Shown piece after piece: positions 20,170 through 64,000 of a DNA stretch of 64,000 nucleotides (position 1 is its first letter; every line of letters starts with the position of its first letter). This DNA is from Ceratodon purpureus (taxonomy: Eukaryota; Streptophyta; Bryopsida; Pseudoditrichales; Ditrichaceae), in NCBI GenBank assembly GCA_014871385.1, contig CM026426.1, positions 36,829,918-36,893,917 on the forward strand. Reading direction: 5' to 3'. The translations under genes were made by a program, and so were the position numbers. Below the pieces are notes generated by a model, which did no database searches, was not told the DNA's origin, and saw only the letters and a list, made by a program, of their open reading frames with translations.

Positions 20170-20182
20170 GAAAATGGGGTAA
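20170..20182 (+). promoter_or_regulatory. Polypurine tract
   Basis: GAAAATGGGGTAA lies immediately before the 3' LTR start TGTGGG. This is the expected place for plus-strand priming. Confidence 0.65.
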
Positions 20183-36467: not shown

Positions 36468-37122
36468 TATTCATTAAAATGGGACTTCTGTAAGTCCCAA
36501 ATTAATATAGTGCTTAAAATAGACCTAAAATTGTATCAACTATAATGGGACTTTCATTATATTGGGACTCAAAATTGATACAATGTTCTTTTAATCAACC
36601 ATTTCTTTCACATTCCAACATAGAATAGGAGCGTCCCTATCATTGAAATATAAATAATTGTTGCTTATTGTTTCAACATAGGACATTTTAAGCAATTCAA
36701 GCATGTCAAAATATCATACATGTCACTTTAAAGGGTGAGAAGTTTGAGGTTTAGCTCAGAGTCAACTAATTCCTCACAAATTTGTATTACTAAGATAATT
36801 CCAACAAATGTTAAAATGATTCGGAAGTTGACTCTATAACAATAAAATTAGAGAGTATAGACTCTTCCAAACAACACCACATTTTTGAACAGCGTGTGAG
36901 CAGTATAGTGCCTGGAATTTATAATTAATATTAAACTTCACAACCTTGAAGCTTAAAAAATGGTATACAAATTAGACAGTTTCTGCCCTCATATCATAGC
37001 AGTTTGTCTAAGAAACATAGTGCACATAATATAATCCAACAATGTTTCCAACATACAAACACTAACGACCTATCCTACCAATATGACAAACTTCCTTATA
37101 CAAAGAAGTTGTTCTACTATTC
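36468..37122. other. AT-rich stretch with GGGACTT hairpins; possible left end of a large element
   Basis: Near its start, TGGGACTT and AAGTCCCA flank a 4-base loop. Further on, TTGTATCAA-like and TTGATACAA-like segments are arranged as an imperfect inverted repeat around two ATGGGACT/TTGGGACT motifs. No gene. Confidence 0.35.
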
Positions 37123-37304
37123 AGCTCATATCAAGCTGATTTAAAGATACGTGAGGTTCATGGCTCCGTAGTAGTTACTTCACATCAAGGTAAATGAAGT
37201 ATACTTTAACTTCCTAGCACCGTAGTATTTAGCTCACATCAAGCTAAATGAATTATACTTTAACTTCATAGCACCGTAGTATTTAGCTCACATCAAGCTA
37301 AACG
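37121..37304 (+). repeat. Palindrome-bearing tandem repeat next to the 3' end of the transposase-like gene
   Basis: Three to four units of about 50-60 bp carry TTTAGCTCACATCAAGCTAAA-like palindromes (37121-37140, about 37170-37192, 37228-37248, 37281-37302), with ACTTCCTAGCACCGTAGTA between them. The array ends less than 20 bases from the stop codon at 37322. It is a variant of the palindrome found around both large genes. Confidence 0.7.
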
Positions 37305-37321
37305 AAGCATACTTTAATTTC

Positions 37322-40141
37322 CTAGAACCTCACCAAACTATTGGAGATAACATTTCTCTGAAGTACTGGACTGCGCACTTTTGGATTTTGAGTCCCAGGT
37401 TTAATTTTTGATTTCCAACTAGTCATAAGTGAATCGGTATCAATCCACTCAGGCGTGTGATCCTCATTTGCTTCCCATTGGAAGGATCTTCCAGAATTCC
37501 ACCCGACATTACACTCTAGGACATCTTCTTTGGTAGACACTGGTTTCCAGTACTGGACTTTAATACCATTGGGATGATTAATTGAGTCTTCAAAAGGATT
37601 CGACATTGCTCTAGCTACCCAGAAGGGTCGTGAATCATCATCAGCCGGGCGTACAATAAGAAAATATCCCTCAAAAACATCACGAGCCACCCGAAATGAT
37701 GCATTCGGTCTATCACGGTGTTGCCCGATGAAGGGCTCATCTACAGCAAAAGCTTCACGGACGGTGCCGTCATCAAGGTACTCATCTTCAGCTGATGGAG
37801 CAAACCGAGATAGTGGCAAGAATCCATCCCTCAAAGTAGAAGGCGATATAATATCTTCTTCGAGAGCTTGATGCACCCCCTTCCAGTACTGTGAAATCCC
37901 TTCATTCCTTCTCCGGAACTCGCCAGACAAGTCTTCATTGGCCATGGTATTCCAATGATTGGTAAATCCCCCAATTCCCCTAATGATCTCGTCTTTGTTC
38001 TTCATGCACTGCGCTGGTAATGCATTTGGACTCCCTAATGGCAAGCTTGGTCTCCCGTCACCAAGCTCACTCCACAACTTAATGCCACCATTCTCTTTTG
38101 GAAGCCAGTCACTATCGGTGCAAACAATCTTATATTGCATCATCGGCCATCCATTCGCATGTTTATAGAATTTGAACTGTTGGGCATTAGTATGTCCCTC
38201 CAAAGCCTCGTCGCCTGAAGCAATATGACCATCAATAAATCCTTTGAAATCTGGCACTTCTTCGATGAAGTGTGGGATCACAGGCTCCGTTTCAGCATCC
38301 ATAAACAATTTCATGAGCAAAGGAATTGTAGGGTAGTCATTTTTCCGAAGCTTCATACTCCAACGCCCAAACAGAGCATCAATATCATCATGTGTATGTC
38401 CAACAAGCATGAAGTTGACATAAACCTCTCGAAATATACCTCGAGCCACAAGAAGTGAAAAAAAACACAACATATATCTATTCTTATTATCAGAGCAGGC
38501 ATTGTCTAGCTGGACATTTAGAATTGGAGGAAGAGGCTTCGCTGGAACAGGTGTTCTTGGTATTGGAGGAAGGGATGACCTACAAATGTCGGCTCCATTC
38601 AAAACCGCCTCAAAGAGAGGTGCAATGCGATCACCAGAAAACAACTCTCCTAAACATGCCATTGGTGTAGACTCAAGGTCACGTAACAGCTTAGCAAGAC
38701 TCCCTACTGTGTGATTCGAGTCACTAGGATAAATATCCAAACCATAGTGTGCATATCGTATATCACCATGTCCATGAGCGATCATCCCAGTCACTTGCAA
38801 CGGTAACTTGAAATACGAATCAGTAGCCTTGTTCTTGTGAGAGTACGCAGGGGACGCAGTTTTGGAGTGATCCATTTTATCATGAATCACAGTGACAACA
38901 TTGTCAGGCTCTGTTATAGAGTTATATTGATTCGCATAGTACAACTCCCTGTGCGCTTGCTGCGCAGCGAGGTGTTCTTGGAGTTTCATTCCCCATAAAT
39001 CCGCTGCCCTTGAACCTTTTGTACTGGCCAATTTCAACGACTTTAGTTTATCACATGTACCACAGCGTGCAAAATTATCTCCAGGTCTCTTCACTGAAAA
39101 CTCTGGGAAGGATCGCCTCCTGATATTGCTGATCCCGGAGAGGGAAACCTTCCGCAGCCCCAGTTGACCATTCACTATATTCACCTGGGGCAAAGAGTCT
39201 TTCCATTTCCATGAAGGTGGCAGCGCCATTGACACTACTTTCTCTCCATTCTCCAACGTCCTTGATCTATGGGGCATCTGATCTGCAACGCTCTCTAGCA
39301 AACAACCCAAGGTTGCTTTTGCCTGAACGGTGTATGTACGAGGCTTTTTAGTCCCCAGATTTCCATGATGGTCTGCCCTTACACCTTCATCAGCAAGGCT
39401 TTGGTGCCGGAAAAAGCTAGTGCGCGATACTCCAAGTATCTTGTACCAAGCAATATGACATACATCAATACCTTCAAGTGTAACAACACGATTCCCAGCG
39501 ACGTCAGTGTGCATTTGCCTATGAACATCAAGTTGAGTGTGCTTCTTGAAGTACACTGTCCCATCTCTCCAGAACTGATTTCGTAGGGCCTCAATCTTAA
39601 GTCTTGGATAGAACTGAACACAATTCAACCGACAACATCTTTCGCTGGATACAGAAGCAATAGCCTCATGAGATAACTTCTCCTCTGCCTTTGGTGTGTT
39701 ATTCGGAACTCTCTGGACTCTAGAACTCTCATAAGGTCTGACTCCTACACGCTTTCTTCCCCGCAACGAAGAAACGGCAGCATTGTAAATGGCCACTTGA
39801 TCATGGTCGTAGAGAGATGCACCATTCACGAATACATTCCAGATATGCCAAGCACGTAGTGAAAACATCCATTCCGATGGCACATCATCTTCACACAAGG
39901 ACTCTGCAATCTGAACAGCGACTTGATCATCTCCAAGCGGAGCTCCATCACTTCCGATTACAAGGTCTGAGTCGATGCTGTGGCAAATCCCTTTGGCAAC
40001 AATAGAGCCATACACGTTCACTAGCGTGACTAATTTCGTGATCCATGAAGACCGAGGCAAGCCTTCGCAAGTAACGACATCGTCTGGCAAAGTTGGCAAC
40101 TGTGGTGCTAGAAACTCGTCAGCGACGGAGAATGCCTCCAT
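37322..40141 (-). CDS. DDE/RNase H-fold transposase-like protein, 939 aa
   Basis: A single uninterrupted exon from ATG at 40141. The central region has the motif set of a large eukaryotic family that I recall as DUF7869-type: a Cys pair (FARCGTCDKLKSLK), then VIHDKMDHSK (Asp at about 419), a strand NVQLDNACSDNKNRY (Asp about 545) and LVGHTHDDIDALFG (about 583). This spacing of acidic residues on predicted strands suggests an RNase H-like nuclease fold. An N-terminal region with RCCRLNCVQFYPRLKIEALR could bind DNA. The C-terminal 150 residues (FWVARAMSNPF, VQYWKPV) resemble a BAH/Tudor-like reader. The acidic residues and frame are intact, so it may be active. It is flanked on both sides by the repeated palindrome. 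Gene-family recognition is from memory; transposase activity is inferred. Confidence 0.75.
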   Translation of the reverse strand: MEAFSVADEFLAPQLPTLPDDVVTCEGLPRSSWITKLVTLVNVYGSIVAKGICHSIDSDLVIGSDGAPLGDDQVAVQIAESLCEDDVPSEWMFSLRAWHIWNVFVNGASLYDHDQVAIYNAAVSSLRGRKRVGVRPYESSRVQRVPNNTPKAEEKLSHEAIASVSSERCCRLNCVQFYPRLKIEALRNQFWRDGTVYFKKHTQLDVHRQMHTDVAGNRVVTLEGIDVCHIAWYKILGVSRTSFFRHQSLADEGVRADHHGNLGTKKPRTYTVQAKATLGCLLESVADQMPHRSRTLENGEKVVSMALPPSWKWKDSLPQVNIVNGQLGLRKVSLSGISNIRRRSFPEFSVKRPGDNFARCGTCDKLKSLKLASTKGSRAADLWGMKLQEHLAAQQAHRELYYANQYNSITEPDNVVTVIHDKMDHSKTASPAYSHKNKATDSYFKLPLQVTGMIAHGHGDIRYAHYGLDIYPSDSNHTVGSLAKLLRDLESTPMACLGELFSGDRIAPLFEAVLNGADICRSSLPPIPRTPVPAKPLPPILNVQLDNACSDNKNRYMLCFFSLLVARGIFREVYVNFMLVGHTHDDIDALFGRWSMKLRKNDYPTIPLLMKLFMDAETEPVIPHFIEEVPDFKGFIDGHIASGDEALEGHTNAQQFKFYKHANGWPMMQYKIVCTDSDWLPKENGGIKLWSELGDGRPSLPLGSPNALPAQCMKNKDEIIRGIGGFTNHWNTMANEDLSGEFRRRNEGISQYWKGVHQALEEDIISPSTLRDGFLPLSRFAPSAEDEYLDDGTVREAFAVDEPFIGQHRDRPNASFRVARDVFEGYFLIVRPADDDSRPFWVARAMSNPFEDSINHPNGIKVQYWKPVSTKEDVLECNVGWNSGRSFQWEANEDHTPEWIDTDSLMTSWKSKIKPGTQNPKVRSPVLQRNVISNSLVRF

Positions 40142-41217
40142 TTTAAAATGCTAATATCAGGTATACTCTTCGAAACCTGGACAAGAGAAAATAACGCAAA
40201 CGGTTAGAGATAGAGACGAAGTTGCAGCACTTTACAAACTTAATATATACTCCCAGCTTCTATAAAACAGAATACATAGAATAGAAGAGTCTATTCAAGT
40301 TCCATGCATGCAGTTACTGAATACCAAGGTAGCTTATGCAAACATACAATAGCAGTCAGGTACATTTCAACATAACTAATTTAGCTCACTGTGAGCCAAA
40401 GTGCTCTATCTGACAAAGCGGTTCAAACAAGTCTACGATATTACTCGAGTTCTCGTGTATGTAGCTTATTCACCCAATTACTAAAAACTTTAATAAACAT
40501 TATTTTCTACGATATGTTGTATTTCCAATATACCATCAATTTGATTCACACATTTCATTTTGCACGGTATCGCTATTCTGATTTTATAGCATTATTATAA
40601 ATCAATACTCCAGTGATAAATCGCACCTATATCACAGCAACAAACAATGTCTTCGGCAACTGTTACGAGTTTAAAATCACCTATGCGGAAGAATTCAAAA
40701 CATAGAATGATGTGGCCTTCGTGAACATATTTCTCTTGAGATACATGTAATGAGTTAGAATTGACCAGAAATGTTCAGAGCGCAGTAATAGTGAATTGAA
40801 AGTTACCTGCGATATTCGATCGTTAATTTGGATTACAACGAGCTAGTGCGCGATATAGCCCACTATGAACTACTAGTAATTTAGCTCACTATGAGCTAAA
40901 TTCTTTTAAAATCAGTACGAAAAGATGGCGTTTAACTTCACGAATTAACACGTTCGGTTTTATATTCACGAAGTAAATATTCGGGCATGAATTCCTCACT
41001 TCCACTTAGACTATACTGGGTTCATGTTCGTTACAATATTTTGAGGATCTTATCTTCATTGATTATAAATTATAAATGACTACGTACAAACATTGAACCG
41101 TACTGTATCTAAGGGTTAGTTGTTTGAGTCATACTATAAACATAGCGTATAGTAAAACAATTCGTATCTCGGGAACAAGTATCTCAGTTATATCCTAAAC
41201 TTTCAATCAATTGCAAA
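40142..41217. other. 5' flank of the transposase-like gene with single palindromes
   Basis: No gene. Copies of the palindrome lie at 40380-40400 (TTTAGCTCACTG, then TGAGCCAAA) and 40880-40900 (one mismatch), and a degenerate copy lies near 40855. Probably leader, intron or promoter DNA of the minus-strand gene. Confidence 0.5.
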
Positions 41218-41583
41218 TTAGCTCTGTGTGAGGTAAGTCAAAGTCTGCTCAAAATGAGCTAAATCAAATCTTGATCTCCGTGAAGTAAGTGGAGTTTTGC
41301 TCACAGTGAGCCAAGTCCGTTTTAGCTCACAGTGAGCTGAGTCCGTTTTAGCTCACAGTGAGCTGAGTCCGTTTTAGCTCACAGTGAGCTGAGTCCGTTT
41401 TAGCTCACAGTGAGCTAAGTCCGTTTTAGCTCACAGTGAGCTAAGTCCGTTTTAGCACAGATTGAGCTAAGTCACAGTTAACTCATAGTGAGCTAAGTCT
41501 AATTTAGCTCATAGTGAGCTAAGTCCAATTTAGCTCACAGTGAGCTAAGTACAATTTAGCTCATAATGAACGAACTCCACTTC
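41218..41583 (+). repeat. Tandem array of the palindrome, 26-bp period
   Basis: About 12 units. The best-preserved ones consist of AGTCCG plus TTTTAGCTCACAGTGAGCT, exactly 26 bases apart (for example 41341, 41367, 41393). Outer units are degenerate (TTTAGCACAGATTGAGCTAA, TTAACTCATAGTGAGCTAA). Arms TTTAGCTCAC and GTGAGCTAAA around one base make a 21-bp dyad. The array sits 1.1-1.4 kb upstream of the transposase-like gene start. Confidence 0.9.
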
Positions 41584-43428
41584 AGCACAGACTGACCCAA
41601 CTCGTATTCAGCCTACCCTTCTCTAACACCAACTTCGCATACATAGTTATATCGCACAATATCTTCAACAAACTTTGATCGCAATAAGGAGGACGTAAAC
41701 ATTACAAATACAACAAGAAAAAATCAACATTCAAATATATATCTCAGTTAAAAATGTACTCATTTTCCCGGATAATTACGGACATAATCAAAGAATTCGT
41801 AAATTAATTCTGAGAACTCTCGGGTACACTCAACAATTCTGACATGATTCGATTCTGATATATAATCGATATCATGAATTACCACCTACGGTCTAAGTTT
41901 ACATACAAATCAGTAACCAAATAAGGTAAAACAGAATCAACTACAATGATTATGAGTGCTACTTCTTTCAATAAGACAATCACCCAGGAAATTGAAAATG
42001 CTGCTAGTACATCTGTATGCATAGGCAATCACCTGTTAAGAGTCCTTGGATGCTCCCAGAGAAACGTTGGTCACTAAATATCTCCCAAGAACTTCACAAC
42101 TATGGACTACGGTCTCATTCTATCAGTACGTGTAAGTAGAGTTCACACACACGAAGGGGCAGTGAAATCTGCAATCGCAGACTCAAGAAGAGAAACCCTA
42201 CAGAGCAATACACGAAGACAACCCCAGCAGACTAAGACAGACTCCACATACCGATACTATACAACTAAAGTGTTGTGAAAGAAAGGCGAGAGAATGAGAA
42301 GCGAGGACGTGATAACCCTGGACCCCAAGCATTCTCGAACGGCTCTTTGAATTTAGCGGGAACATTCGACATCCCCATTTAGGCGGGAAGGATGTATTCT
42401 TTTATTGTCCTTTCACCGTTGGTCCATTCTGAGGATGCAGCACAATCTCAGCTTGTCCTTTCCCAGCGCTTTGCGCTCCATTTTAGGCGGCGGTACCTTT
42501 GCACCACTTTATTCCACAGTATGGAGTAGCCGGGACGTCGACATGAATGCTTTCAACGAATATGGCTAATTACAGAAGGAGGCATTGTATAGGGGCGAGA
42601 GACTTTCGTTGTGTTCTATTCAGTTAGGTAGATTCGGCCTAATTTTGCATCCATGACCTCCTCACCTTCTTGGTTTATGCTCTCCAACATCGGGAACTAC
42701 AGAGGTCAACATACACTTTGACAAACAAGTGACTTCTGACCTGTCAAGATAGGAAATTCGATACGGGGAATAGATGGACCTGGTGTCTGTTGGCGGGAAA
42801 TAATAAAATTACTCTTAGAGATGCTCCTGTGGATTTCTTTTGGTTGTGGTGAAAAACATAGAATTTCAAGAATCACATACACAAACCATAGATGTCAAAA
42901 CGATTTACTTGTACTAAAAAGAACTATCATGTTGCAAACATTGGTATATAATCACATAATACCGTGAGTAATGAAAGGGAATATAAATCGAATATAATAT
43001 TTAAAAGGAATGAACCACGTTTCAAATCAAAGTAATTTCCTTCTCATAAAGAAGAACTTGAATTTTATAATTAAGTTCTTAGGAAGTTAATTATCCATCT
43101 TGGATTACTCCGTGACTTTTATGACAAGTACATATAACAAAGTTAAACCGTTCCATTTTAAGGAAGCTCAAACGTTTATGAACATGACCTCAACTCATTG
43201 TTCTAATGGGAAATAGATATGATATACCCATGGTTAAAGTGTTAATTAATATAGTATGTGATACGTAAATAATCAATTAAAACAATTCATGTGACAAACC
43301 ACATGAATATGAAACGACTGAGCCAAAAAACCAGCCATTTTGATACACATTTATCTCATTTAAATCTAGAGAACAGAATGGTCAAATTGATATGTATTAC
43401 AGTTGTATTAATGAAATGCGTGACGCAC
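41584..43428. other. Intergenic DNA upstream of the transposase-like gene
   Basis: No supported ORF. Part of it (about 42130-42680) is GC-richer and could be the promoter and first exon region of the minus-strand gene. I could not identify a specific promoter. Confidence 0.4.
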
Positions 43429-43590
43429 CTAAACCCTGATCCCTATCCTTATACCCTAAACCCTAGTTACCCTAAACCCTATACCCTATACTCTAAACCC
43501 TAAACCCTAGTTACCCTAAACCCTATACCCTATACTCTAAAACCCTAAACCCTAGTTACCCTAAACCCTATACCCTATACTCTAAACCTT
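43429..43590. repeat. Interstitial telomere-like (CCCTAAA) repeats
   Basis: Runs of ACCCTAAACCCTA and variants (ACCCTATACCCTATACTCTAA, ACCCTAGTTACCC) make three copies of a higher-order unit of about 55 bp. The base motif is the plant telomere heptamer read as CCCTAAA. Degeneracy and internal position show it is not a functional telomere. Confidence 0.85.
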
Positions 43591-44356
43591 ATACATTGAA
43601 CATTTACAGATAAATGTGCATACGAAAATTAAATCATCTGCTTTTCTGGGTGATGATTTTGTTTTGTTAATTAACTTGGTTTCATTCAAATTCCATTATA
43701 CACAGAAGCTAGTCATACATAATTTCACAAGAATGTTAAAACATGTGCACTGTGAATACATAAACTATATAATATTTGTAATTTTGGATTTTTCGTACGG
43801 AAGTGATGTATCTTACCCATAAATATTAGAGATGTTTGGAATTGGACACGTATTGTGTCATTATTTTTGCATCTAGATAATAAGTCTAGTATTATAGTAT
43901 TTTCTAACTACTAATACAACCTCAAATTCCTTACTCTTTTTCGTTTCATATTTGAATAGTTAAATTTGTTGTTAAAATTTACGTAATATTATTCTATGGT
44001 ATAGGGTCTCATACGGCAGAAGAGGATTGCAAAATTCATTACGGTAAAAATTAGAGTAAATCTTAGTTGCATTTCCATCTACAAATTAGATTCTACATGA
44101 GTACTAGGAATTTAACTAGTGAATATAAAGCTTTGTTTCCTGCACATTGCTTAAGGTCATTTATTCCTTTTTCACAGAAGACAAACTAGTTATTAGTCAG
44201 ATAATTAAGGAATTGTTTATGAAACATTTGCTCAATAAATCATGAACATGAACATTATAACATATTAATATTGTAAATTTAATAATTTCCCCATATAATC
44301 CTATTAAATTTTTATTCTTCCATTATTCTTTGTTTTTTTTTTTAAAGTTTTTTTAA
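43591..44356. other. AT-rich DNA between telomere-like repeats and the large tandem array
   Basis: No gene. From about 44280 it turns T-rich and resembles the tail of an array unit. Confidence 0.45.
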
Positions 44357-47300
44357 TTGACTTCTAGGCCATCGCTTGTATTATTTTATTTTTTGTCCTT
44401 CTATTCTTCTCTCACTCTATTTTCTCTCTTCTTTGAATCTTACAATAATATTTACCCAATGTTTTTTTAATTGTTTATTTTATTAGCCACCTATTCCCTA
44501 TCATTCTAATTTTATACTTCCTATGGATACACCATTCTAGTATCTTCGCTTTCTTTGATTCTTCCATGAGTCATCCAACCGTTCCTCTACTTTTTCATCT
44601 TTCTATTTCTCTCCCTCTCTACTTCATCATTTTTAATTATTCTATTCTTCAACCATTTATTTTATTTTATTTTATTTTATGTTATCATTATTATTATATA
44701 CATCATCAATTATACTCTCTTTTCTTTTCATTCGTCCATTGGTCATCCTTTGTAGTATATCTCCTTTCTTTAATCATCCATAATTGGTCATCTATCTTTT
44801 CACTTCGTCTTTCATCCTGAATCTTTACCCAGGCTTCCCTATCTATTGAATCTCATTCTATTCTTTTCTTTCTTTGTATTACTTTTTAAATTATTTTTTT
44901 AATATTTTATTTGGCTTCTATTATATCCTCTTATCTTTATTACTCTTGCATGGATCTTCCATCCTTTTCCCCTAGTTTATAATTCTTCTATTCCTCTCTC
45001 TCTCTAGCATTTTTTCTTAACTATTCTATTCTTCTTCCATTTTTTTTTTTAATATTACTATTTTCAATATATTTTATTGGGCTTCGTCTCTATCCTCCTA
45101 TTTTTCAACTATTTCATTGGTCATCCATCCTTTCCTCTACTTTTCAATCCTTCTATTCCTCTCTATGTACCATTTTTTCTTCATTCTTCTATCCTACTTC
45201 TATTGTTTTTTGTTTTTTTAATTTTATTTCTTATTAGTTTAAATTAAAATCTTTTTCTAATTATTTTATTGGTCATCTTTTCAATTATACTGTCTTTTTA
45301 TTCATCCACAGGTCACCCATCCTTTCTTTTCGTATTTCATCCTTCTATTATCGCCCAATCTTTTTCACCATTTTTTTATTAATATAAATATTTTTTTGAA
45401 AATTTTTTATTGGTCAAATTTTCTATCATCCTGTATTTCTATTTGCTCATTGGTCATCTATCATTTCCCTTGATATTTCATCCTTCTACTCTCTCCCAAT
45501 CTATTTCTCCATTTTTTCTTATATTATTTTTTTATTTTTTTATTTACTGTATTGGTCTTCCTTTCTATCCTTCTATCTTTTCATTCGCCCATTGGTTATC
45601 TTCAATTTTCTTAGTTTTTCATCCTTCTATTCCTATCCGTCCTTATTTCATCTTTTTTCTTTTCTCCTATTATTAATGAATGTTATTTTTTTAATTATTA
45701 TTCTTTAATTATTTCATTCGGCTTCGTCTCTATCTTGTTTTTTTTACTATTCCACTGGTCATCCATCCTTTCACTTGGTTTTCACCCCCCTATTTCTCTC
45801 TGTATGTACCATGTCTTTTTGAATCTTCTATTATACTTCTATTATTTTTTTTTATCTTTATTTAATTATTTTAGTGCTCTTGTAGTCTATCTTGTTTTGT
45901 TTTTGCTCTCCGATTAGTCATCCATCCTTTCACTTATCTTTTCATCTTTTTATTCTATTGCTCTCTATTTAAAGATTTTTTTTATTCTTCTATTTTTCTA
46001 CCATTTAATTATTTTTAATTTTGTTTTTAATTTATTTTATTGCTCTTCTTTTCTATCATTCTAACTCTTTAGTTCGTCCATTGGTCACACCTCCCTTTCG
46101 TAGTTTCTAATCCTTCTATTCATGTTCATCTCTATTTTTTTATTTTTTTTTGAATTCTTCTATTCTTCTAACTTCTTCCATTGTTTTTTTTTTTTAATAT
46201 TTTTTTTAATTGACTTCTAGGCCATCGCTTGTATTATTTTATTTTTTGTCCTTCTATTCTTCTCTCACTCTATTTTCTCTCTTCTTTGAATCTTACAATA
46301 ATATTTACCCAATGTTTTTTTAATTGTTTATTTTATTAGCCACCTATTCCCTATCATTCTAATTTTATACTTCCTATGGATACACCATTCTAGTATCTTC
46401 GCTTTCTTTGATTCTTCCATGAGTCATCCAACCGTTCCTCTACTTTTTCATCTTTCTATTTCTCTCCCTCTCTACTTCATCATTTTTAATTATTCTATTC
46501 TTCAACCATTTATTTTATTTTATTTTATTTTATGTTATCATTATTATTATATACATCATCAATTATACTCTCTTTTCTTTTCATTCGTCCATTGGTCATC
46601 CTTTGTAGTATATCTCCTTTCTTTAATCATCCATAATTGGTCATCTATCTTTTCACTTCGTCTTTCATCCTGAATCTTTACCCAGGCTTCCCTATCTATT
46701 GAATCTCATTCTATTCTTTTCTTTCTTTGTATTACTTTTTAAATTATTTTTTTAATATTTTATTTGGCTTCTATTATATCCTCTTATCTTTATTACTCTT
46801 GCATGGATCTTCCATCCTTTTCCCCTAGTTTATAATTCTTCTATTCCTCTCTCTCTCTAGCATTTTTTCTTAACTATTCTATTCTTCTTCCATTTTTTTT
46901 TTTAATATTACTATTTTCAATATATTTTATTGGGCTTCGTCTCTATCCTCCTATTTTTCAACTATTTCATTGGTCATCCATCCTTTCCTCTACTTTTCAA
47001 TCCTTCTATTCCTCTCTATGTACCATTTTTTCTTCATTCTTCTATCCTACTTCTATTGTTTTTGGTTTTTTTAATTTTATTTCTTATTAGTTTAAATTAA
47101 AATCTTTTTCTAATTATTTTATTGGTCATCTTTTCAATTATACTGTCTTTTTATTCATCCACAGGTCACCCATCCTTTCTTTTCGTATTTCATCCTTCTA
47201 TTATCGCCCAATCTTTTTCACCATTTTTTTATTAATATAAATATTTTTTTGAAAATTTTTTATTGGTCAAATTTTCTATCATCCTGTATTTCTATTTGCT

Positions 47301-50300: not shown

Positions 50301-53300
50301 ATCCTTTGTAGTATATCTCCTTTCTTTAATCATCCATAATTGGTCATCTATCTTTTCACTTCGTCTTTCATCCTGAATCTTTACCCAGGCTTCCCTATCT
50401 ATTGAATCTCATTCTATTCTTTTCTTTCTTTGTATTACTTTTTAAATTATTTTTTTAATATTTTATTTGGCTTCTATTATATCCTCTTATCTTTATTACT
50501 CTTGCATGGATCTTCCATCCTTTTCCCCTAGTTTATAATTCTTCTATTCCTCTCTCTCTCTAGCATTTTTTCTTAACTATTCTATTCTTCTTCCATTTTT
50601 TTTTTTAATATTACTATTTTCAATATATTTTATTGGGCTTCGTCTCTATCCTCCTATTTTTCAACTATTTCATTGGTCATCCATCCTTTCCTCTACTTTT
50701 CAATCCTTCTATTCCTCTCTATGTACCATTTTTTCTTCATTCTTCTATCCTACTTCTATTGTTTTTTGTTTTTTTAATTTTATTTCTTATTAGTTTAAAT
50801 TAAAATCTTTTTCTAATTATTTTATTGGTCATCTTTTCAATTATACTGTCTTTTTATTCATCCACAGGTCACCCATCCTTTCTTTTCGTATTTCATCCTT
50901 CTATTATCGCCCAATCTTTTTCACCATTTTTTTATTAATATAAATATTTTTTTGAAAATTTTTTATTGGTCAAATTTTCTATCATCCTGTATTTCTATTT
51001 GCTCATTGGTCATCTATCATTTCCCTTGATATTTCATCCTTCTACTCTCTCCCAATCTATTTCTCCATTTTTTCTTATATTATTTTTTTATTTTTTTATT
51101 TACTGTATTGGTCTTCCTTTCTATCCTTCTATCTTTTCATTCGCCCATTGGTTATCTTCAATTTTCTTAGTTTTTCATCCTTCTATTCCTATCCGTCCTT
51201 ATTTCATCTTTTTTCTTTTCTCCTATTATTAATGAATGTTATTTTTTTAATTATTATTCTTTAATTATTTCATTCGGCTTCGTCTCTATCTTGTTTTTTT
51301 TACTATTCCACTGGTCATCCATCCTTTCACTTGGTTTTCACCCCCCTATTTCTCTCTGTATGTACCATGTCTTTTTGAATCTTCTATTATACTTCTATTA
51401 TTTTTTTTTATCTTTATTTAATTATTTTAGTGCTCTTGTAGTCTATCTTGTTTTGTTTTTGCTCTCCGATTAGTCATCCATCCTTTCACTTATCTTTTCA
51501 TCTTTTTATTCTATTGCTCTCTATTTAAAGATTTTTTTTATTCTTCTATTTTTCTACCATTTAATTATTTTTAATTTTGTTTTTAATTTATTTTATTGCT
51601 CTTCTTTTCTATCATTCTAACTCTTTAGTTCGTCCATTGGTCACACCTCCCTTTCGTAGTTTCTAATCCTTCTATTCATGTTCATCTCTATTTTTTTATT
51701 TTTTTTGAATTCTTCTATTCTTCTAACTTCTTCCATTGTTTTTTTTTTTAATATTTTTTTTAATTGACTTCTAGGCCATCGCTTGTATTATTTTATTTTT
51801 TGTCCTTCTATTCTTCTCTCACTCTATTTTCTCTCTTCTTTGAATCTTACAATAATATTTACCCAATGTTTTTTTAATTGTTTATTTTATTAGCCACCTA
51901 TTCCCTATCATTCTAATTTTATACTTCCTATGGATACACCATTCTAGTATCTTCGCTTTCTTTGATTCTTCCATGAGTCATCCAACCGTTCCTCTACTTT
52001 TTCATCTTTCTATTTCTCTCCCTCTCTACTTCATCATTTTTAATTATTCTATTCTTCAACCATTTATTTTATTTTATTTTATTTTATGTTATCATTATTA
52101 TTATATACATCATCAATTATACTCTCTTTTCTTTTCATTCGTCCATTGGTCATCCTTTGTAGTATATCTCCTTTCTTTAATCATCCATAATTGGTCATCT
52201 ATCTTTTCACTTCGTCTTTCATCCTGAATCTTTACCCAGGCTTCCCTATCTATTGAATCTCATTCTATTCTTTTCTTTCTTTGTATTACTTTTTAAATTA
52301 TTTTTTTAATATTTTATTTGGCTTCTATTATATCCTCTTATCTTTATTACTCTTGCATGGATCTTCCATCCTTTTCCCCTAGTTTATAATTCTTCTATTC
52401 CTCTCTCTCTCTAGCATTTTTTCTTAACTATTCTATTCTTCTTCCATTTTTTTTTTTAATATTACTATTTTCAATATATTTTATTGGGCTTCGTCTCTAT
52501 CCTCCTATTTTTCAACTATTTCATTGGTCATCCATCCTTTCCTCTACTTTTCAATCCTTCTATTCCTCTCTATGTACCATTTTTTCTTCATTCTTCTATC
52601 CTACTTCTATTGTTTTTGGTTTTTTTTAATTTTATTTCTTATTAGTTTAAATTAAAATCTTTTTCTAATTATTTTATTGGTCATCTTTTCAATTATACTG
52701 TCTTTTTATTCATCCACAGGTCACCCATCCTTTCTTTTCGTATTTCATCCTTCTATTATCGCCCAATCTTTTTCACCATTTTTTTATTAATATAAATATT
52801 TTTTTGAAAATTTTTTATTGGTCAAATTTTCTATCATCCTGTATTTCTATTTGCTCATTGGTCATCTATCATTTCCCTTGATATTTCATCCTTCTACTCT
52901 CTCCCAATCTATTTCTCCATTTTTTCTTATATTATTTTTTAATTTTTTTATTTACTGTATTGGTCTTCCTTTCTATCCTTCTATCTTTTCATTCGCCCAT
53001 TGGTTATCCTCAATTTTCTTAGTTTTTCATCCTTCTATTCCTATCCGTCCTTATTTCATCTTTTTTCTTTTCTCCTATTATTAATGAATGTTATTTTTTT
53101 AATTATTATTCTTTAATTATTTCATTCGGCTTCGTCTCTATCTTGTTTTTTTTACTATTCCACTGGTCATCCATCCTTTCACTTGGTTTTCACCCCCCCT
53201 ATTTCTCTCTGTATGTACCATGTCTTTTTGAATCTTCTATTATACTTCTATTATTTTTTTTTATCTTTATTTAATTATTTTAGTGCTCTTGTAGTCTATC

Positions 53301-53618
53301 TTGTTTTGTTTTTGCTCTCCGATTAGTCATCCATCCTTTCACTTATCTTTTCATCTTTTTATTCTATTGCTCTCTATTTAAAGATTTTTTTTATTCTTCT
53401 ATTTTTCTACCATTTAATTATTTTTAATTTTGTTTTTAATTTATTTTATTGCTCTTCTTTTCTATCATTCTAACTCTTTAGTTCGTCCATTGGTCACACC
53501 TCCCTTTCGTAGTTTCTAATCCTTCTATTCATGTTCATCTCTATTTTTTTATTTTTTTTTGAATTCTTCTATTCTTCTAACTTCTTCCATTGTTCTTTTT
53601 TTAATATTTTTTTTAATA
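44357..53618 (+). repeat. Five tandem units of about 1852 bp (pyrimidine-rich satellite-like array)
   Basis: Unit starts, taken at TTGACTTCTAGGCCATCGC, are 44357, 46210, 48061, 49913 and 51764, giving periods of 1853, 1851, 1852 and 1851. Units are almost identical; the differences I saw are mainly T-run lengths and a T/G change. Each unit is itself built of diverged sub-blocks with recurring TATTGGTCWTCC, ATCCTTTC and TTCATCCTTCTATTC. The plus strand is strongly C+T-rich. ORFs of 60-88 codons repeat once per unit but are Phe/Ser/Tyr low-complexity and are not genes. Confidence 0.95.
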
Positions 53619-56406: not shown

Positions 56407-56720
56407 ATTTAGCTCACTGTGAGCTAAATTGTAGTATAACTTCAAAAATTTAGTTCACAGTGAGCTAAATAATAGTGCAACATAGACGATTTAGCTCACA
56501 GTAAGCTAAGTTGTAGTGCAACTTAGAGGATTTAGCTCACTATGAGCTAAATTCTAGTGCAACTTAGAGGATTTAGCTCACCGTGAGCTAAATTCTAGTG
56601 CAACTTAGAGGATTTAGCTCACTGTGAGCTAAATCTTAGTGCAACCTATTCTCATATTTAGCTCACGCAGAGCTAAATGAGAGTCCAACTTAGAGATTTT
56701 AGCTCACACTGAGCTAAATC
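56407..56720 (+). repeat. Palindrome cluster with 41-bp spacing
   Basis: Eight copies of the palindrome lie here. Units near 56449, 56490, 56530, 56571 and 56611 are about 41 bases apart with the linker TAGTGCAACTTAGAGGAT. Compensated variation around the dyad (ACAG, ACTG, ACCG, ACTA) leaves the outer arms intact. Confidence 0.9.
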
Positions 56721-56943
56721 CTATGCCCTCGAAACCAAATTTGCTCTCTCTGAACTTAATCTTCTCAACAACTCCGATACAATACTAATGACCTTTGAGT
56801 TGTTCTGATAATAAAGTACTTACTGTCGCTAAGGGTGAGCTAAACGATTTAAATTTACTTGAAACACTACAGATCCAAGTCGTGAGCTTACTATATATTA
56901 CTAACAATCTAGGTCCATCTACTTTAGCAGGCGTACTTCAAAG

Positions 56944-57097
56944 TTTAGCTCACAGTGAGCTAAATGCTTGGGGATAAAAACGCTACAGCCAACACCTAAC
57001 TTCTTTATATGATTATTAACATTTTAGCTCACAGTGAGCTAAATCTCTCGTCAGAATTGGTTTGATTCGTGTACATTTGGCTCACAGTGAGCAAAAC
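56944..57097 (+). repeat. Three further palindromes just upstream of the start codon
   Basis: Copies at 56944-56965 and 57023-57044 are perfect; that near 57076-57096 is degenerate (TTTGGCTCACAG, then TGAGCAAAA). They probably lie in the intron of the 5' leader that ends at 57216. Confidence 0.85.
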
Positions 57098-57216: not shown

Positions 57217-58665
57217 ATGACGATGGCGTCCCCAGTTCTAATGCCAGATGGTTACGACATGAGTCACCTCGATCCATTTATTGAAATATTTACAAACCCT
57301 GATCCAACAATCCCCTTCTTTGAACCGTCCTTGGAGAACTCCTACGGTTCCCTCTGGAAGTTCAAGACCCAGGTCGAGGGATGGTCTCTTGCCGTATCTA
57401 GGTACAACAAGTTTGTGCGGATATTGCACAAGGAGAAGAACAGTCCACGGTACCTAGATCTCTCTACACATGAACGAGTGAAAGTTATCGAAGAACATCA
57501 CCGAAAGTACATTGTACTAACGGTTGGTGCTGTGGACCCAGAATCAGAATGTGATCTAACACATGTCCACTCCTTGATAATCGAGGTTGGAGTTCCACAT
57601 TCTCGATTTGACCCGGAGGCGTTGATCAACAGCATGATCGGAACATCATGCGAGGATCTCCGACTCGACGTAGAGAAGACCTCGTGGAGGAATGATGATG
57701 GTACAGAGTTGAGCGCCGTATCTTTTGGACGTAGATTGAATCGTATATTCTTGACCCTAACGCATTACATAACTGACAAATTAGCCTCCAAGATCTCTAC
57801 TCTTCCGTTACATAGCACTGCGCTGGTTTCTATGCGTGAAGACTCTGCTGCTCCATCTCGGGGGAGCATTCAGCAGACTGAGGCATCACCCATTCTGGCT
57901 CCATCTCGTTCACGTGCAAGCAAGCGCCCGGCCATTGACGTGCCCGAAGCATCCACTTCGAAGAAGAGGCGGAAGCAAACAGGGAAGGCAGGAAGCTCGG
58001 GATCCGGACTAACTCAGACAGAGGAAACTAAGAAGGCGAAAGCAAAGGGAAAGGAAAAGGACGTACCAGATTATCAGAAGTTTACAGAGATCCAGAAGAC
58101 ATTCTGGGATGACTGTGAATCCGCATATGTCTTTGATATGAAGACCACATTCCCTGTTAATGTCAAGCAGTGTCATATTGCGAAGGATGAGTATATTGTC
58201 CGGGACTTAGAGAGAGATATTGTTAAATCTGTGAAAGAGGAGCTCGTAAGGATGGGAGACATTAACCAGAGACAGAAGGTTTGCCTAATGCCAGTGACTG
58301 ACAATTTGCAGCTCCTGCCAGAGAAACCGAAGTCGTGGGGCGACATAAAAGACGGAAAGTTTATGATAATCAATGGTCAACATAGTATAGTAGCTTCACA
58401 GGAGTTACAGGTTTCAGGTTGCGGGGAAAAGAGGAAGAAGGAGCTCGAATACTGGGACGCGTACATCGTATGGAGCAAAGACGCTATGATCCTAGTCAGA
58501 ATCTCCGAGTTTTATAATATGTGTAACCATCTTAATCACGCGCAGCCTACATGAGGTACTAACATACTGAGTGCGCCGAATGTCTGGATTAGCCAAGAGA
58601 AACCTACGAATATGAAAGACAACAATCGAAACAACGGAGCTCAATACAACACCAAGAAATATCAG
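57217..58665 (+). CDS. Composite gene, first coding exon: ParB-like domain (premature TGA)
   Basis: Starts with ATG at 57217 right after the 3' splice site TTTGCAG. Residues 1-200 are unrecognised. A Ser/Lys-rich stretch with STSKKRRKQ (about 247) looks like a nuclear signal. Residues about 290-480 resemble a ParB/sulfiredoxin-type domain: a KFMIINGQHSIVAS segment (NGQH at 386-389) matches the GxHR box with Ser for Arg, then VSG, a LEYWDAYIVW strand and a helix. TGA at 58552-58554 interrupts it at codon 446. The same frame stays open past it, NVWISQEKPTNM follows, and it ends at a consensus donor CAG/GTATAT (58665/58666). A TGG-to-TGA change is likely. ParB-like domains often sit next to DNA methylases in mobile elements, and here one follows in the next exon. 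Confidence 0.6.
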
Positions 58666-58731
58666 GTATATATAATTGAATATTATTCGCAATTTCTTGA
58701 ATATACAGTTTCGTGGGTTAATGTACATCAA

Positions 58732-58809
58732 TTTAGCTCACTGTGAGCTAAACTGAGAATTCTATTTATCCAGACCAAGAAGGCCGCATTTGGCTCACTG
58801 CGAGCTGAA
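58732..58809 (+). repeat. Two palindromes in the first intron of the composite gene
   Basis: A perfect copy lies at 58732-58752 and a diverged one (TTTGGCTCACTG, then CGAGCTGAA) at 58789-58809. The intron runs from 58666 to 59084 with GT..AG ends and phase 0. Confidence 0.85.
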
Positions 58810-59084: not shown

Positions 59085-61838
59085 AAATTTGTGGACTTGC
59101 TTATCAAGAGATTTCAGAACATCGATCCGAGCAAAGAGGGAAAGCAAATCCAGGGGCCAGCAGACATAAAGAATGAAATGGTAATAATCACCGCCCCGGA
59201 AGATCATTACAGTCTGTGGAAGGAGTTTATCACGAAGCACAGCACCGGAGAGTTGATAGATCCAGAAACCTGTGAAAGGTTTAATCAGAAAAAGGGATTC
59301 AAGGGCGGAAAGGCTTTCCAACTCCAACGCAGTTTCTTCCGTGGAATGGGCTTCATGACAGAAGAGGAGACGAAGTCATTGGTGATACACTTACTGATGC
59401 AGACGAAGAATTGGAAGTATCGATACCCCAAGGTATCAGTACACAAAACCCGGGGCACAGTATTGCCACATCACTACTCATCTGGAGACTGGATGGCCAA
59501 GAAGAAGAGGAAGCGGATCTGTATCCAGGAACTCCATGACATCAAACCGACACTCGGGCTTTGCAACAAGGATATGACTATCAACCGCGAGAAGTGGCAC
59601 GAGTGGAAGGATAAGCACGGTATCTCCAGCGCCACGTTGAACGTTCTTCTGGACCGGCCTGACAAGGCATTTTATGGTTTTCGAGCTGAGAAGAAAAGGA
59701 TGTTTAAGAGGTCAAGGGATTTGACGGATAAATGGCCCAATGTGTTTCCATTCTTTAAGAAGTTTCTAGAGGTGAAAGGTAATTTCGTTGCTCCCAAAGG
59801 TCGGATTCGTACAAGATTATTCAATGCCGTGAAAATGGAGTTTGAGCAGCACTTCGTCTACGACAGTGCTCCGCGACTTGGACTGGCATTATTGGATTTG
59901 CGAGATACCCCCGGCCATTCGACAAAGGATGACACTGTCGAGAATCCGTTCTTCAAGCCGTTTATGAAGAAACTTCTACTCTTAAAAACTCCAGGTGTCT
60001 CCGACCCGGAAGTTTGGGTCTGGATTAGTGCTTCACAGCACAGGATCGCCCAGGCAATCGCATACGGTGAGAAGTACATGAAAGGGTACGAGGTGATTCC
60101 ATCAAGGTATATTCCCGCGAAGAACGAACGCCTGAACGATCATACTACTAGGAACTCCGGGAAGGATGAGTTGTACCTTGTATTCTTGGTGCGTGCCGGT
60201 AGGAGCGAAGAGAAGAAAAAGGTAAAGGCGGTATACAAAGCTCCTAACACAAACTATTATATAGTTTACGGACTGTATAAGGAAGCTCATTTACGACTGA
60301 ACGCTCGGGAACTCCGGATGGAGTTCTACATAGAGCTCTTCAAGACCTTTTGCTTACCGGGGGAGAACTTCTGGGGCGTGTTTAGTGGAACAAAGTGTAT
60401 GCTAGCCGCTCGGGTAAGTGACTGTATTTAATTTCTATGTCTCAATTTTGTCTTAGTGAGTATTAATTGAATTAGCTCACAGTGAGCTAAAGTGAAGTCC
60501 GAAACTCGTGTACCTTAATTTGTATTCATTAAATTTAGCTCAGTATGAGCTAAATGGTAAGTCACGCTTTTGTGTAAGAAATGTATGGTTCTCTAATGTT
60601 ATTGAAATTGAATTATCCCTAGGAATCCGCGTCGGTGAGGCTGTCAGAATTTAGCTCATAGTGAGCTAAATGTTTCTTTCCTAATCCATTCTAATTTTTA
60701 AGTGTGTTCTGTCCAGATCTATGGTCTGTTCTACTACGGAATAATAGACCATAACTTCGAGGACTGCTACAAGCAGATGGCGAAGCTGGTTCCTCACCTG
60801 GATATGAATGATTTCATTCAAGTGGACTCTGTCTACGACGCACCGAAGGAGGACCAGCCGATGCCTGACAGACAGCAGTTTCTAGAGAGTGACGAATTCA
60901 AAAGAAGCATCACTGTGGAATCCGAGGACGATGATGAGGCGGATGAGAGAGACGAAGAGCACGAAGGCGAAGCTCTCGAAGAGGAACCAGTTGAAGAGAC
61001 TCTTGGGGCGGGATTTGACGAGGAGACACTCGGTGCAGGATTTGACGAAGAGGTTCTTGGAGCAGATATTGATAACTTGCCTGCCACACCTGGATCAGGT
61101 CCACGCTCCACAAGTTTAGCTCATAGTGAGCTAATTTACTCACCACTTAGCTGGCATTCTTCACCTCGTGAGTCTAGATTTCGCGTCCAAAACTCTATTC
61201 TAGGGCGGCGCCTCGTTCAGGAGTTCGGGTCAGAGCAGCAGACTCAAATCCAAAACATTGGGTCAACTTCGAAGGATATTGACATGGACGAAGAAGAGGA
61301 CTCGGAAGGGGGAGCGGATGAAGGAGTCCTTGACCTTGACGTGCTAGAGAGTAGAGGGGGTGAAAGCTGTGTGAAGACTGTGACGAAGACTCCGTTGGTT
61401 CTGCTCAGCGACTCCGAGGATGATAGCTTAGATGAAGAACCGAAGACTTCAGAGACCAGAGTTGTAGCGAGAGCACCAGTAGTTCATCCTGTTGTTGTCC
61501 GCACAGAGTTAGTACCAGATGACGCAGAGGAAGTCTTCAACGCTGCGGGGAAGGCACCCCATCCAGGAGCACCGGTTTCAAAGAGGGATGTGGACTGGTT
61601 CGAGTGGAACAAAGAGAAGAGAAAGAAGAAGGAGGAGAAGAGGGAAAAAGAAGCCGAGGCAACTCGGCGTATTGTTGAAGAGGCTCGTTTAGCGAAGGAA
61701 AGGGCGGAGAGCCTTGTCAAGATTCAAGAGGAGAAGGATCGCGAGAGGGACAGAGAGATGCGGGAGAGGGACAGAGAGATGCGGGAGATGCGTAGTATGT
61801 TGATGCAGATGCGAGGCCAAATTCCTGCTCCAGTCTAG
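59085..61838 (+). CDS. Composite gene, middle part: beta-class DNA amino-methyltransferase-like domain and acidic/coiled-coil region
   Basis: Exon 59085-60413 and exon 60717-61899 are joined across a 303-bp GT..AG intron in phase 0. Joined, they give FYIELFKTFCLPGENFWGV, then FSGTKCMLAARIYGLFYYGI. This aligns in order and spacing with the C-terminal AdoMet-binding motif of beta-class N4/N6 DNA methylases (pGd.vlDpF.GsGtt..AA...GR..iGiE). Before it, PEVWVWISASQHRIAQAI and KGYEVIPSRYIPAKN fit the central strands. Motif IV (DPPY-type) would fall at LALLDLRDTPGH and is not conserved, so catalysis is doubtful. After the domain come a long acidic stretch (repeated EETLGAGFDEE) and a charged coiled coil (KKEEKREKEAEATRRI, RDREMRERDREM). 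TAG at 61836-61838 is in frame with further sense codons to the donor at 61899. Confidence 0.6.
60471..60670 (+). repeat. Three palindromes in the second intron of the composite gene
   Basis: Copies at 60471-60491 (first arm ATTAGCTCAC), 60534-60554 (centre AGTAT) and 60650-60670 (centre ATAG), all with the GAGCTAAA arm intact, inside the intron 60414-60716. Confidence 0.85.
61115..61134 (+). repeat. Palindrome copy inside coding sequence
   Basis: TTTAGCTCATAGTGAGCTAA lies in the exon and is read as SLAHSELI. It is in frame and does not disrupt the ORF. Either a repeat unit inserted into an exon or a site tolerated by coding. Confidence 0.8.
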
Positions 61839-62431
61839 GAGACCGCCATCGAGAAGCCCATTGTGATGCCCAATAGTGATGCGGTTGAAAGTCCTAAAGG
61901 TAAAGACTAAAGAGTAATGAATGTAATCTAGAAACCATGGATTGTATGGTATGATCGAGAATGATAAACCTGGTTGTGTGGTTCTCGAATTGTCTCAGTC
62001 TAATTGTTATGGTTTTGGTATGATAGTTGTTTCTTAACGGTACAAGATATTTAGATTTTTATCTTTTTCATATTACCGGAGATATCCATTTAATCACATT
62101 ACTGGTTTCACCATCAAAGGTTTTAGTAATGTATGCCTTTGATTACAGTACTTAGATGTAAGATCCAGTTGCAATAGGGAGAAGGCAGTAGCTCAAATTT
62201 TGTCCCAATCTGAAGCAGTGTGCGGGATCTTCTAAGTTTTCACAGTCGTACAAATCGACCAAATATTTGAACTACGTATATTAGTTCTAAATGTCATTAA
62301 AAATGTTAGCAATTTGGATCAACTCATTAGAATTTTATAACAGATTGTAGCGATAAAGAAATATCAACGTGCTCAACGACTGAACCCACTATGAATTGCA
62401 TTGGGTTATCTTCTAGGCCTGTATAAAAAGA

Positions 62432-62452
62432 TTTAGCTCACATTGAGCAAAA
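62432..62452 (+). repeat. Palindrome in the third intron of the composite gene
   Basis: TTTAGCTCACATTGAGCAAAA, 41 bases before the exon start at about 62494. Confidence 0.75.
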
Positions 62453-62493
62453 TCCTATAGAAGTAGCTGACATTTGTATTTCTAATTATCCAG

Positions 62494-64000
62494 GTTGTGA
62501 TGCTTTGGCCACTACGGATACTACGGTGGAGAATGCCGTTGTGGTCGAAGAGGAGATTCCGGACGCTGTTATTACGAGCCCTTACAAACCGATGACTCCA
62601 ATTCCATCAGGCCCGAAAAATGACGATGATGACATTGGTAGTGGCGGTGATGGATTCTCCGTTAACCCAGTCACACCTGCAACGAGCCCCACGGTGGACC
62701 TGGAGGGAGGGGGTAACCTGTCGGCCAACCCTACACCAAAAGAGACTTCAGGGCCCTCAGACTGTTTGGTGGAACCCGAAGCACTTGTCGATCCGGTTGA
62801 TGAAGAGTTAGTGGACTACGAGGAGTCTCCAGGGGCAAGTCTCTCTCTCCCAGACGCTCAGAGGATTCACCTGGAGAGTCAGCAAAGTGATGATTGTCCC
62901 GAGGTATGCACCTCTGAGATATATATCAACTTAAAGCTCTGAGTATTACTTCTCCACTGTTTAATTCTAAAGTAGAGGTCTTAGCCAAATGATAAGTGAC
63001 TGTATTTACATATATGTAAGTGTGACAATACACATTTTATAAAATTTTGATATTCAATATTATAAAAGAATCTATCGTGGCATTTTATTTACCTCACACT
63101 GAGCAAAGTTAAGATGTTAATTTCATAGAGTAGCAGAAGAATTTGAGTATCTGCAGAATTTGACTTGTTTAAATTGGTGTGCTTCAATGGATGGTCAGCT
63201 TAATGGAACTGACCATGTTCACCGCCCGGTTGCTGTTAAATCTGTGGTTAGCGACGTGGAATTGCGTTCCAATTGTCAAAATCAAAAGTTCAAATTCTCC
63301 TCGCCTTTTCGTCCATCTGCATTTCAACAGGTAACGCCATTTGTTTTGTTTTATTGATTTTCCAGGCTGAAGCTTCTACACAGTTTCCACGAGGTCTTAA
63401 GGGTGTAACTTCCAAGAAGTGGCTGAACATTGTTTTGGACATTAATGGTATTCTATGTAAATGCGTCGAGAGGCGTCTTGGGTTGAAGGACTCAGTGACA
63501 AACCACGTAAACCTTTCTGTTCTTAGTCCGAAGTTCGCCACTATTGTTGGACCGAAGGCAGTGTATGTTCGGCCCGGCTTCTCAGATTTCATATCATTTG
63601 TGAACGAATTCGCAAATATCTTGGTCTGGAGTTCAATGAAGAATTCGACAGCGGTGGATGTTGTCAAATATCTTTTCACTGAGCTGCCCATACCTTCGCT
63701 TGTTCTTAGTCAGGAAGATTGCGAACGAATTCAAACTTCTCGCCGTACCTACTTGAAATACCCTGATGGAGATAAGCCTATATTTTTGAAAACGTTCTCT
63801 TCAGCCCTTTTTGGAGAGAGTAGTATCTACAACGAGGACAACACAATTCTAATTGATGATAGTCCGGAGAAAAGCATCTGTAATGAGACTGGCAATGCTG
63901 TTTTCCTAAAGTCCTGGATTGAAAAGGATGAAAAAGATGACTACCTTATGTCAGTTTTGGCTCGATGGTTGTCCAACTTGGTCAAGGTGGTTGCTAATGG
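62494..64000 (+). CDS. Composite gene, last visible part: FCP1/NLI-type HAD phosphatase-like domain (runs off the window)
   Basis: Exon 62494-62903 continues the previous exon in phase across a 594-bp intron (61900-62493). It is Pro/Asp/Glu-rich and disordered. A 462-bp GT..AG intron (62904-63365, phase 0) leads to an exon open from 63366 to the window end. That exon shows KKWLNIVLDINGILCK, matching the DxDx[TV] nucleophile strand in the plant-type form DxNG, so the second Asp is Asn. Next comes YVRPGFSDFISFVNEF, then ILVWSSMKN (the WSS motif), and finally TILIDDSPEKSICN, which fits the IDDSPxK motif. This order is diagnostic of the FCP1/TIM50 branch of HAD phosphatases, which normally act on phospho-Ser/Thr of protein tails. 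The Asn for the acid/base Asp may reduce activity. No stop lies in the visible part. Confidence 0.7.
63088..63108 (+). repeat. Degenerate palindrome in the fourth intron
   Basis: TTTACCTCACACTGAGCAAAG, the rightmost copy seen, within intron 62904-63365. Confidence 0.6.

Follow-up and report, generated by a model that had tools for sequence, protein, structure and literature searches.

The window analysed here, a stretch of 64,000 nucleotides of the genome of the moss Ceratodon purpureus (C6:36829918-36893917), holds a large DNA transposon that runs on past its right edge. The element carries two long genes, here called gene A and gene B, and many copies of a 21-bp palindrome, or dyad, TTTAGCTCAC-N-GTGAGCTAAA, in which two arms of ten bases surround a single base (10-N-10). 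It is virtually certain that the dyads and both genes of the window belong to one element, and very probable that this element moves by cut-and-paste transposition. As an explanation of the whole we favour, with some reserve, a two-gene transposon with terminal inverted repeats (TIRs), whose dyads would be read by a dimer of its own making and would keep its own genes expressed.

The ends of the element were established by comparison of seven fetched copies: the window copy and four others of the same family (C5a, C5b, C6a and C6b; with the window copy, the W-type) and one copy each of two further families (C9 and C3). All seven are DNA transposons of 19-29 kb (about 19-24 kb, and 29 kb for the window copy), each with gene A and gene B in head-to-head orientation. 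C6a and C6b can be aligned along their full length, 21.7 kb, with 98.7% identity, and the window enters this alignment at 36461. The features that define the window copy are as follows.

36461-65728 (window part 36461-64000), plus strand: window copy of the transposon, 29,268 bp
36461-36485, plus strand: left TIR, AACACCATATTCATTAAAATGGGAC, 25 bp
65704-65728, beyond the window: right TIR, one mismatch to the left TIR
36457-36460: left target-site duplication (TSD), ATTG; its right copy, beyond the window, is at G000:C6:36895646-36895649
32416-32560, plus strand: paralogous empty site for the window copy, outside the element
44310-53617, plus strand: pyrimidine-rich region, expanded to 1.85-kb tandem units

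The five W-type copies start with AACACCATATTCATTAAAATGGGAC and finish with its inverse, with one mismatch in all five, while the two 25-bp TIRs differ at no position in C3 and at two in C9. A 4-bp TSD is present in all seven copies (CATG, TATT, TATT, AGTG, ATTG in the window copy, TCAT in C3 and TTAG in C9). The termini read 5'-AA..TT-3', and 5'-AACA..TGTT-3' in six of the seven copies; the left end of C9 starts with AAGG. No TIR pair was found within the window alone, because the right end of the element lies outside it. The position of that end agrees with the empty site. The repeats at 32416-32505 and 36371-36460 are 94% identical and both break off after ...GATTG; the continuation of the former, TTAGAACTGCTAAG, occurs in the window only at 32506 (search with up to 6 mismatches), and the right flank past 65728 reads ATTG-TTAGAACTGCTAAG, as expected from the empty site. 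The element thus ends at 65728, which gives the window copy its 29,268 bp. Its extra length is mostly the pyrimidine-rich region, which consists of five 1.85-kb units, more than 99% identical, each made up of imperfect subrepeats some 140-170 bp long, one strand being strongly pyrimidine-rich; sequence related to this region occurs in other copies. A short array of 44-bp telomere-like, CCCTAAA-related units also lies inside the element (43428-43588). An earlier note on this DNA, made from its letters, had suggested that both genes belong to one large DNA transposon-like element, and had proposed an alignment of dyad islands as a check for common ends, TIRs and target duplications. The complete copies, each with one TIR pair and one TSD, bear out the suggestion.

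The two genes are divided over the window copy in the following way.

37322-40141, minus strand: gene A, intact, 939 residues, DUF7869 (PF25273) transposase-like protein
57217-58665, plus strand: exon 1 of gene B, interrupted by one in-frame stop in the window copy
59085-60413, plus strand: gene B exon 2
60717-61899, plus strand: exon 3 of gene B, of low complexity and likewise with one in-frame stop in the window copy
62494-63330, plus strand: exons 4 and 5 of gene B and the intervening intron 4, limits tentative
63366-64000, plus strand: last in-window exon of gene B, with the NIF/HAD (FCP1-like) domain, running on past the window

Gene A matches PF25273 with an E value of 4.4e-45 (154.1 bits, cut-off 26) and no other Pfam profile; it is to this family that its earlier description as transposase-like corresponds. 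Its nearest database protein is Ceratodon purpureus KC19_VG078600 (P0002), with which it shares 683 of 705 residues over the main matched part. The protein contains the motifs HDKM-D, QxDN and GHTHDDID; D421, D546 and D586/D588 are kept in 35-36 of 36 aligned proteins, and a CxxC (360-363) and H420/H425, both N-terminal of D546, are also conserved. These motifs look like an RNase H-type DDD centre, and we infer from sequence that gene A may encode a DDD/E cut-and-paste transposase. Its reading frame is unbroken in five of the seven fetched copies.

Gene B had been described as a ParB/methylase/HAD gene, and the HAD part of this description holds: a NIF domain (PF03031) was found towards the C-terminus of the protein with an E value of 1.9e-14 (54.1 bits, cut-off 21.8), and it alone exceeds the cut-off among the Pfam matches of the gene B pieces and their relatives. 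In a predicted relative, P0113, the NIF domain and the region of gene B exons 1-2 stand in a single protein. The ParB and methylase parts, the latter taken as an N4/N6 DNA methyltransferase, are not upheld, as neither gave a significant match when the gene B pieces and relatives were compared with Pfam, NCBIfam, PHROGs and PDB sequences. P0113 has a weak PADLOC match to a type II methyltransferase (E 0.0062), which did not recur with a segment taken from P0117, a near-identical protein, or from the window. Among the matches reported for the two genes there was none to TET/JBP. In ParB-parS systems a palindromic site is repeated around a ParB-like gene; the moss element, in contrast, has no significant ParB match and no partition context was seen in it, so this is a resemblance only. 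HAD enzymes carry DxDx, and since the HAD segment of gene B reads LDINGIL at this place, catalysis by this domain is doubtful. The window gene B has two in-frame stops; many other copies keep the frame of exon 2 open. At the exon 4-5 junction no single open frame was obtained with ten splice pairs tried, and the last intron of the tentative model (63331-63365) is 35 bp only.

The dyads are distributed around these two genes as follows.

37166-37329: 54-bp-period array of degenerate dyads in the left subterminal region
40380-41575: dyads 5' of gene A, including a 26-bp-period array (41294-41563)
56408-57096: dyads 5' of gene B, including a 41-bp-period array (56407-56723)
58732-58809: two dyads in gene B intron 1, both retained in position in C6a
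60471-60670: three dyads in gene B intron 2, two of them retained in C6a
61115-61135: dyad in gene B exon 3
62432-62452: dyad in gene B intron 3
63088: weak dyad (4 mismatches) in gene B intron 4

With up to 3 mismatches allowed, the window contains 30 dyads, spanning 37228-62452, and none was found in 100 dinucleotide shuffles; with up to 5 mismatches there are 38, spanning 36750-63088. A further control with 200 palindromes of shuffled arms gave a mean of 0.005 matches at 3 mismatches (maximum 1). The count of at least 30 given in the earlier note is therefore correct, as are its two arrays, to which the 54-bp array can be added, and its placement of dyads in four introns and one exon, provided that the weak one of intron 4 is included. 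Its statement that no copies lie left of 37.1 kb is not, the leftmost weak dyad being at 36750. The two arms carry the information content of the sites, a flanking A and T add a weaker share, and the outer positions vary between sites. The arrays with periods of 26, 41 and 54 bp have one core inside differing repeat units. Dyads sit on both sides of gene A. In C5a, C5b, C6a and C6b, too, a dyad is found within the match to gene B exon 3; in the window copy the exon is read through the dyad as LAHSEL, the other two frames being closed by the dyad itself.

The association of dyads and genes extends to the whole genome (362,488,568 bp in 151 contigs searched). It has 2370 matches to the dyad and 9 to the reversed pattern used as a control, and the six dyad islands among the matches listed (on C1, C2, C3, C4 and two on C5) all hold both genes, which is the test that the earlier note had proposed. 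There are at least 51 genome matches to gene A and at least 100 to gene B exon 2; the gene A matches listed omit, for example, the gene A copies of the fetched C9 and C3 elements. After merging into loci, 39 of 47 gene A loci have a head-to-head gene B within 35 kb, 35 of these at 8.7-13.0 kb, and eight have none within this distance; in this count two gene A loci share a single gene B locus, and the pairing drew on 71 of the 100 gene B rows. Random placement on C6 paired a mean of 0.25 of 33 gene A loci. This contig (110,524,308 bp) appears to be the V chromosome, if the tag KC19_V is read as V, and with 110.5 of the 362.5 Mb it holds 33 of the 47 gene A loci (binomial 2.4e-8).

Each of the seven copies carries 23-48 family-specific 21-bp dyads, nearly all of them non-coding. 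In total 272 dyads lie inside the copies and none of the three dyad types occurs in 141,274 readable bp of flank (151,274 bp examined, of which 10,000, at C6b, are N). Six of the seven copies have near-terminal dyads, at distances of 155-425 bp on the right and 520-838 bp on the left; the C9 copy has none at 3 mismatches, the nearest being 4.3 and 4.9 kb from its ends. A perfect dyad at G000:C1:18062500 lies beyond the expected span of an element, some 19 kb away from the closest gene B exon 2.

The dyad itself differs between element families. The C9 copy (23,502 bp, TSD TTAG) has the dyad TTATCCTCGA-N-TCGAGGATAA, and its identity to the window copy is 54% in gene A and 39-40% in gene B exons 1-2. 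The C3 copy (18,970 bp, TSD TCAT) has the dyad TTTAGCTCGA-N-TCGAGCTAAA, with 49% identity to the window copy in gene A and 28-30% in gene B exons 1-2. In both families the dyads stand in arrays 5' of each of the two genes and in the introns of gene B. When 2 mismatches are allowed, each element contains 22-34 of its own dyad and 0-2 of those of the other two families. Across the three families both arms of the dyad change together, while the 21-bp format with a single central base is constant. This is as expected of a site that is read by a symmetric dimer, and the dyads probably are sites for a dimer encoded by the element. Of the two genes, gene A is the slower to change (54% vs 39-44% for gene B between the window and C9).

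The gene A alignment was also scanned once against a collection of genome contigs, which gave three loci. L001 (CADCWO010000071.1) is a 4.3-kb contig in a metagenome-assembled genome of a desert-crust cyanobacterium that encodes a moss-like DUF7869 protein, and is probably misbinned moss DNA. Its gene A is nearest to that of C3 (67.7%) and is 47-49% identical to those of the window and C9 copies. It contains five C3-type dyads at up to 3 mismatches, three before and two after gene A and none within it, against none in 200 shuffles, the C3-type motif having first been derived from L001 itself; with the window's motif at 5 mismatches five were also found (shuffle mean 0.02). L002, a distant DUF7869 locus (24%), has different palindromes 3' of the gene, namely 22-bp palindromes TTGTGTTCG-N4-CGAACACAA set in a repeat of 89 bp where the contig ends (L002:4972-5149). 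As a parallel case these are suggestive only.

Comparison of copies gives a low ratio of non-synonymous to synonymous divergence (dN/dS) for gene A and for gene B exons 1-2. We calculated this ratio after dropping codons that are stops in either copy; it is undefined where dS is 0. Between the window and three other copies it is 0.07-0.08 for gene A, and between the window and other copies 0.03-0.06 for gene B exons 1-2; in the comparison with C6a, gene A has a value of 0.08, gene B exon 1 of 0.06, exon 2 of 0.04 and the HAD exon of 0.48. Synonymous sites have diverged from those of C6a by 0.27 in gene A, 1.17 and 1.09 in gene B exons 1 and 2 and 0.08 in the HAD exon, a difference of up to 15-fold. 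Because synonymous divergence is mosaic in this way, the sequences point to an exchange of segments between element families. In gene B introns 1 and 2 the dyads are better conserved between the window and C6a than the sequence around them (79 of 95 dyad columns identical, 344 of 581 other columns; Fisher 3.7e-6).

These observations suggest a way in which the element may work. Gene A would move the element. A dimeric protein encoded by the element, with gene B a slightly likelier source than gene A, would bind the dyads upstream of both genes and in the introns of gene B, as well as those that most copies have close to their ends. Binding would maintain the expression of the element's own genes, most likely by counteracting host silencing, as VANC does for VANDAL elements. 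If the specificity of the binding protein changed, the dyads of that element family would change too. That the dyads serve anti-silencing or self-activation rather than transposition alone is a proposal to which we give slightly better than even chances.

Several observations weigh against this explanation. A DNA-binding domain of a known type was recognised in neither of the two genes. The near-terminal dyads of six of the seven copies also fit a role in transposition, and one dyad in each W-type copy is exonic, in gene B exon 3. One of the three dyads of intron 2 is absent from C6a, and for the intron 3 dyad the contrast with its surroundings is slight (19 of 21 vs 483 of 572). The HAD exon has dN/dS of 0.41-0.48, and gene B exon 1 has values of 0.08-0.56 among near-identical copies, where changes are few. 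Gene A is broken in two of the seven copies, by one stop in C5a and by rearrangement in C6b. The third locus of the contig scan, L003, likewise a distant DUF7869 locus, has no palindrome excess (4 vs a shuffle mean of 5.3).

One alternative is that the dyads are transposase sites for excision and integration only, gene B being a passenger or helper. Short repeats that are bound by the transposase are present near both ends of hAT and CACTA elements, and the near-terminal dyads of most copies resemble them, as does L001, where gene A alone is in view beside the dyads. In the moss element, however, most sites are internal, in arrays 5' of both genes and in gene B introns, C9 lacks the near-terminal dyads at 3 mismatches, and the dyads are more conserved than their surroundings in introns 1 and 2, if not clearly in intron 3. 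We therefore regard a role in transposition only as unlikely. Less likely still, and indeed improbable, is that the element has captured the sites of a host transcription factor and encodes no protein of its own that binds them. Their placement upstream of genes would suit a host factor, but the excess of genome sites over the reversed control, the six listed islands, which hold the element, the absence of dyads from 141 kb of readable flank and the symmetrical change of the dyads between element families within one host genome all argue against it. That two separate neighbouring elements share one family of sites, the alternative left standing in the earlier note, is scarcely conceivable. In its favour, a comparison of 35.5-44.5 kb with 53.5-64 kb of the window gave dyads and low-complexity pyrimidine-rich sequence as the stronger matches, and eight gene A loci are without a gene B partner within 35 kb. 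The other 39 are paired, and in the five copies of the same family, as well as in C3 and C9, both halves lie inside one TIR pair and one TSD, so that for the seven fetched copies the alternative is rejected.

A further alternative concerns classification, namely that the element is a member of the proposed Lanisha superfamily and that its dyads are known there. Two authors of the note that proposed it, McDaniel and Carey, are also authors of the Ceratodon genome. Lanisha goes back to a note in Repbase Reports of 2020 (Maumus, McDaniel and Carey), which is cited in PMC12730594. As described in the latter, the clade to which Lanisha belongs (CMCT) has C(2)C and H(3-4)H between the second D and the last E, termini of 5'-CA..TG-3' in most cases and TSDs of 2-5 bp. 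Measured against this description, the moss element is alike in its short TSD, here of 4 bp, and in that it is very probably a cut-and-paste DNA transposon, but its motif order and termini are no clear fit: the CxxC and H420/H425 precede D546, which we read as the second D, although the catalytic residues may also be assigned otherwise, and the ends are 5'-AACA..TGTT-3' in six of seven copies. The gene A transposase may belong to Lanisha; the alternative as a whole, known dyads included, we consider possible at somewhat less than even chances.

Among known systems, VANDAL elements of Arabidopsis, which are MULEs, and their VANC proteins offer the closest likeness to the reading that we prefer, a transposon whose own protein reads its dyads. 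According to PMC5735166, the sites of VANC21 lie in introns, intergenic sequence and terminal non-coding DNA, form tandem repeats and differ between families. The short motif changes by turnover of tandem repeats, and of the two proteins the transposase is the better conserved (PMC5735166 and PMC10398659). The moss element likewise combines a transposase-like gene with a faster-changing second gene, and has a family-specific motif in non-coding arrays that is confined to the copies as compared with their readable flank. The differences are that it has a DUF7869 transposase-like protein and 25-bp TIRs, that its motif is a true 21-bp palindrome rather than the 9-base YAGTATTAY of VANDAL, and that its second protein carries a NIF/HAD domain and does not match DUF1985/DUF287, the domains named in PMC5735166; in the moss element binding and anti-silencing would be assigned by analogy. 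We rejected the possibility that the element is itself a VANDAL, as the proteins differ (above the cut-off gene A matches only DUF7869 and gene B only NIF). Fungal transposons that carry TET/JBP genes (KDZ, ESTA and others) are comparable in that the second gene may act on DNA methylation, as described in PMC12730594, and differ in that the second gene of the moss element has a NIF/HAD domain.

Literature searches on Ceratodon transposons and Ceratodon sex-chromosome repeats gave no recognised account of the element, and those on subterminal palindromes, on ParB and transposase in Physcomitrella and on novel DNA transposon superfamilies gave none either, within the titles and abstract openings of the matches listed. 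DUF7869 is named in no paper of the literature searched. Since no account was found in this literature, we regard the palindrome system as the new part. A viral origin of the element was considered and rejected, with no relative in the viral contigs scanned with gene A, gene B, a piece of L002 and the exact dyad. Elsewhere in the window, 10463-23837 is a Gypsy-type retrotransposon with gag and pol open reading frames and long terminal repeats of 3.66 kb that are 99.9% identical.

The genome of Ceratodon purpureus thus contains, at dozens of loci, a transposon some 20 kb long that has both its ends and carries two long genes, and each of its three families has a palindrome of its own. A tentative extension of our reading, somewhat less likely than not, is that self-marking like that of VANC has evolved independently in a moss, in a giant DNA transposon from a superfamily whose biology is little described, where a protein bearing a NIF/HAD domain would recognise the 21-bp palindrome of its own family and protect or activate all copies in trans, and where the recognition code would switch symmetrically while the 10-N-10 geometry remains fixed. 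The element makes the evolution of self-recognition in a selfish element open to test, that is, which protein reads the site and how site and reader change together, and also whether escape from silencing arose more than once in plants.

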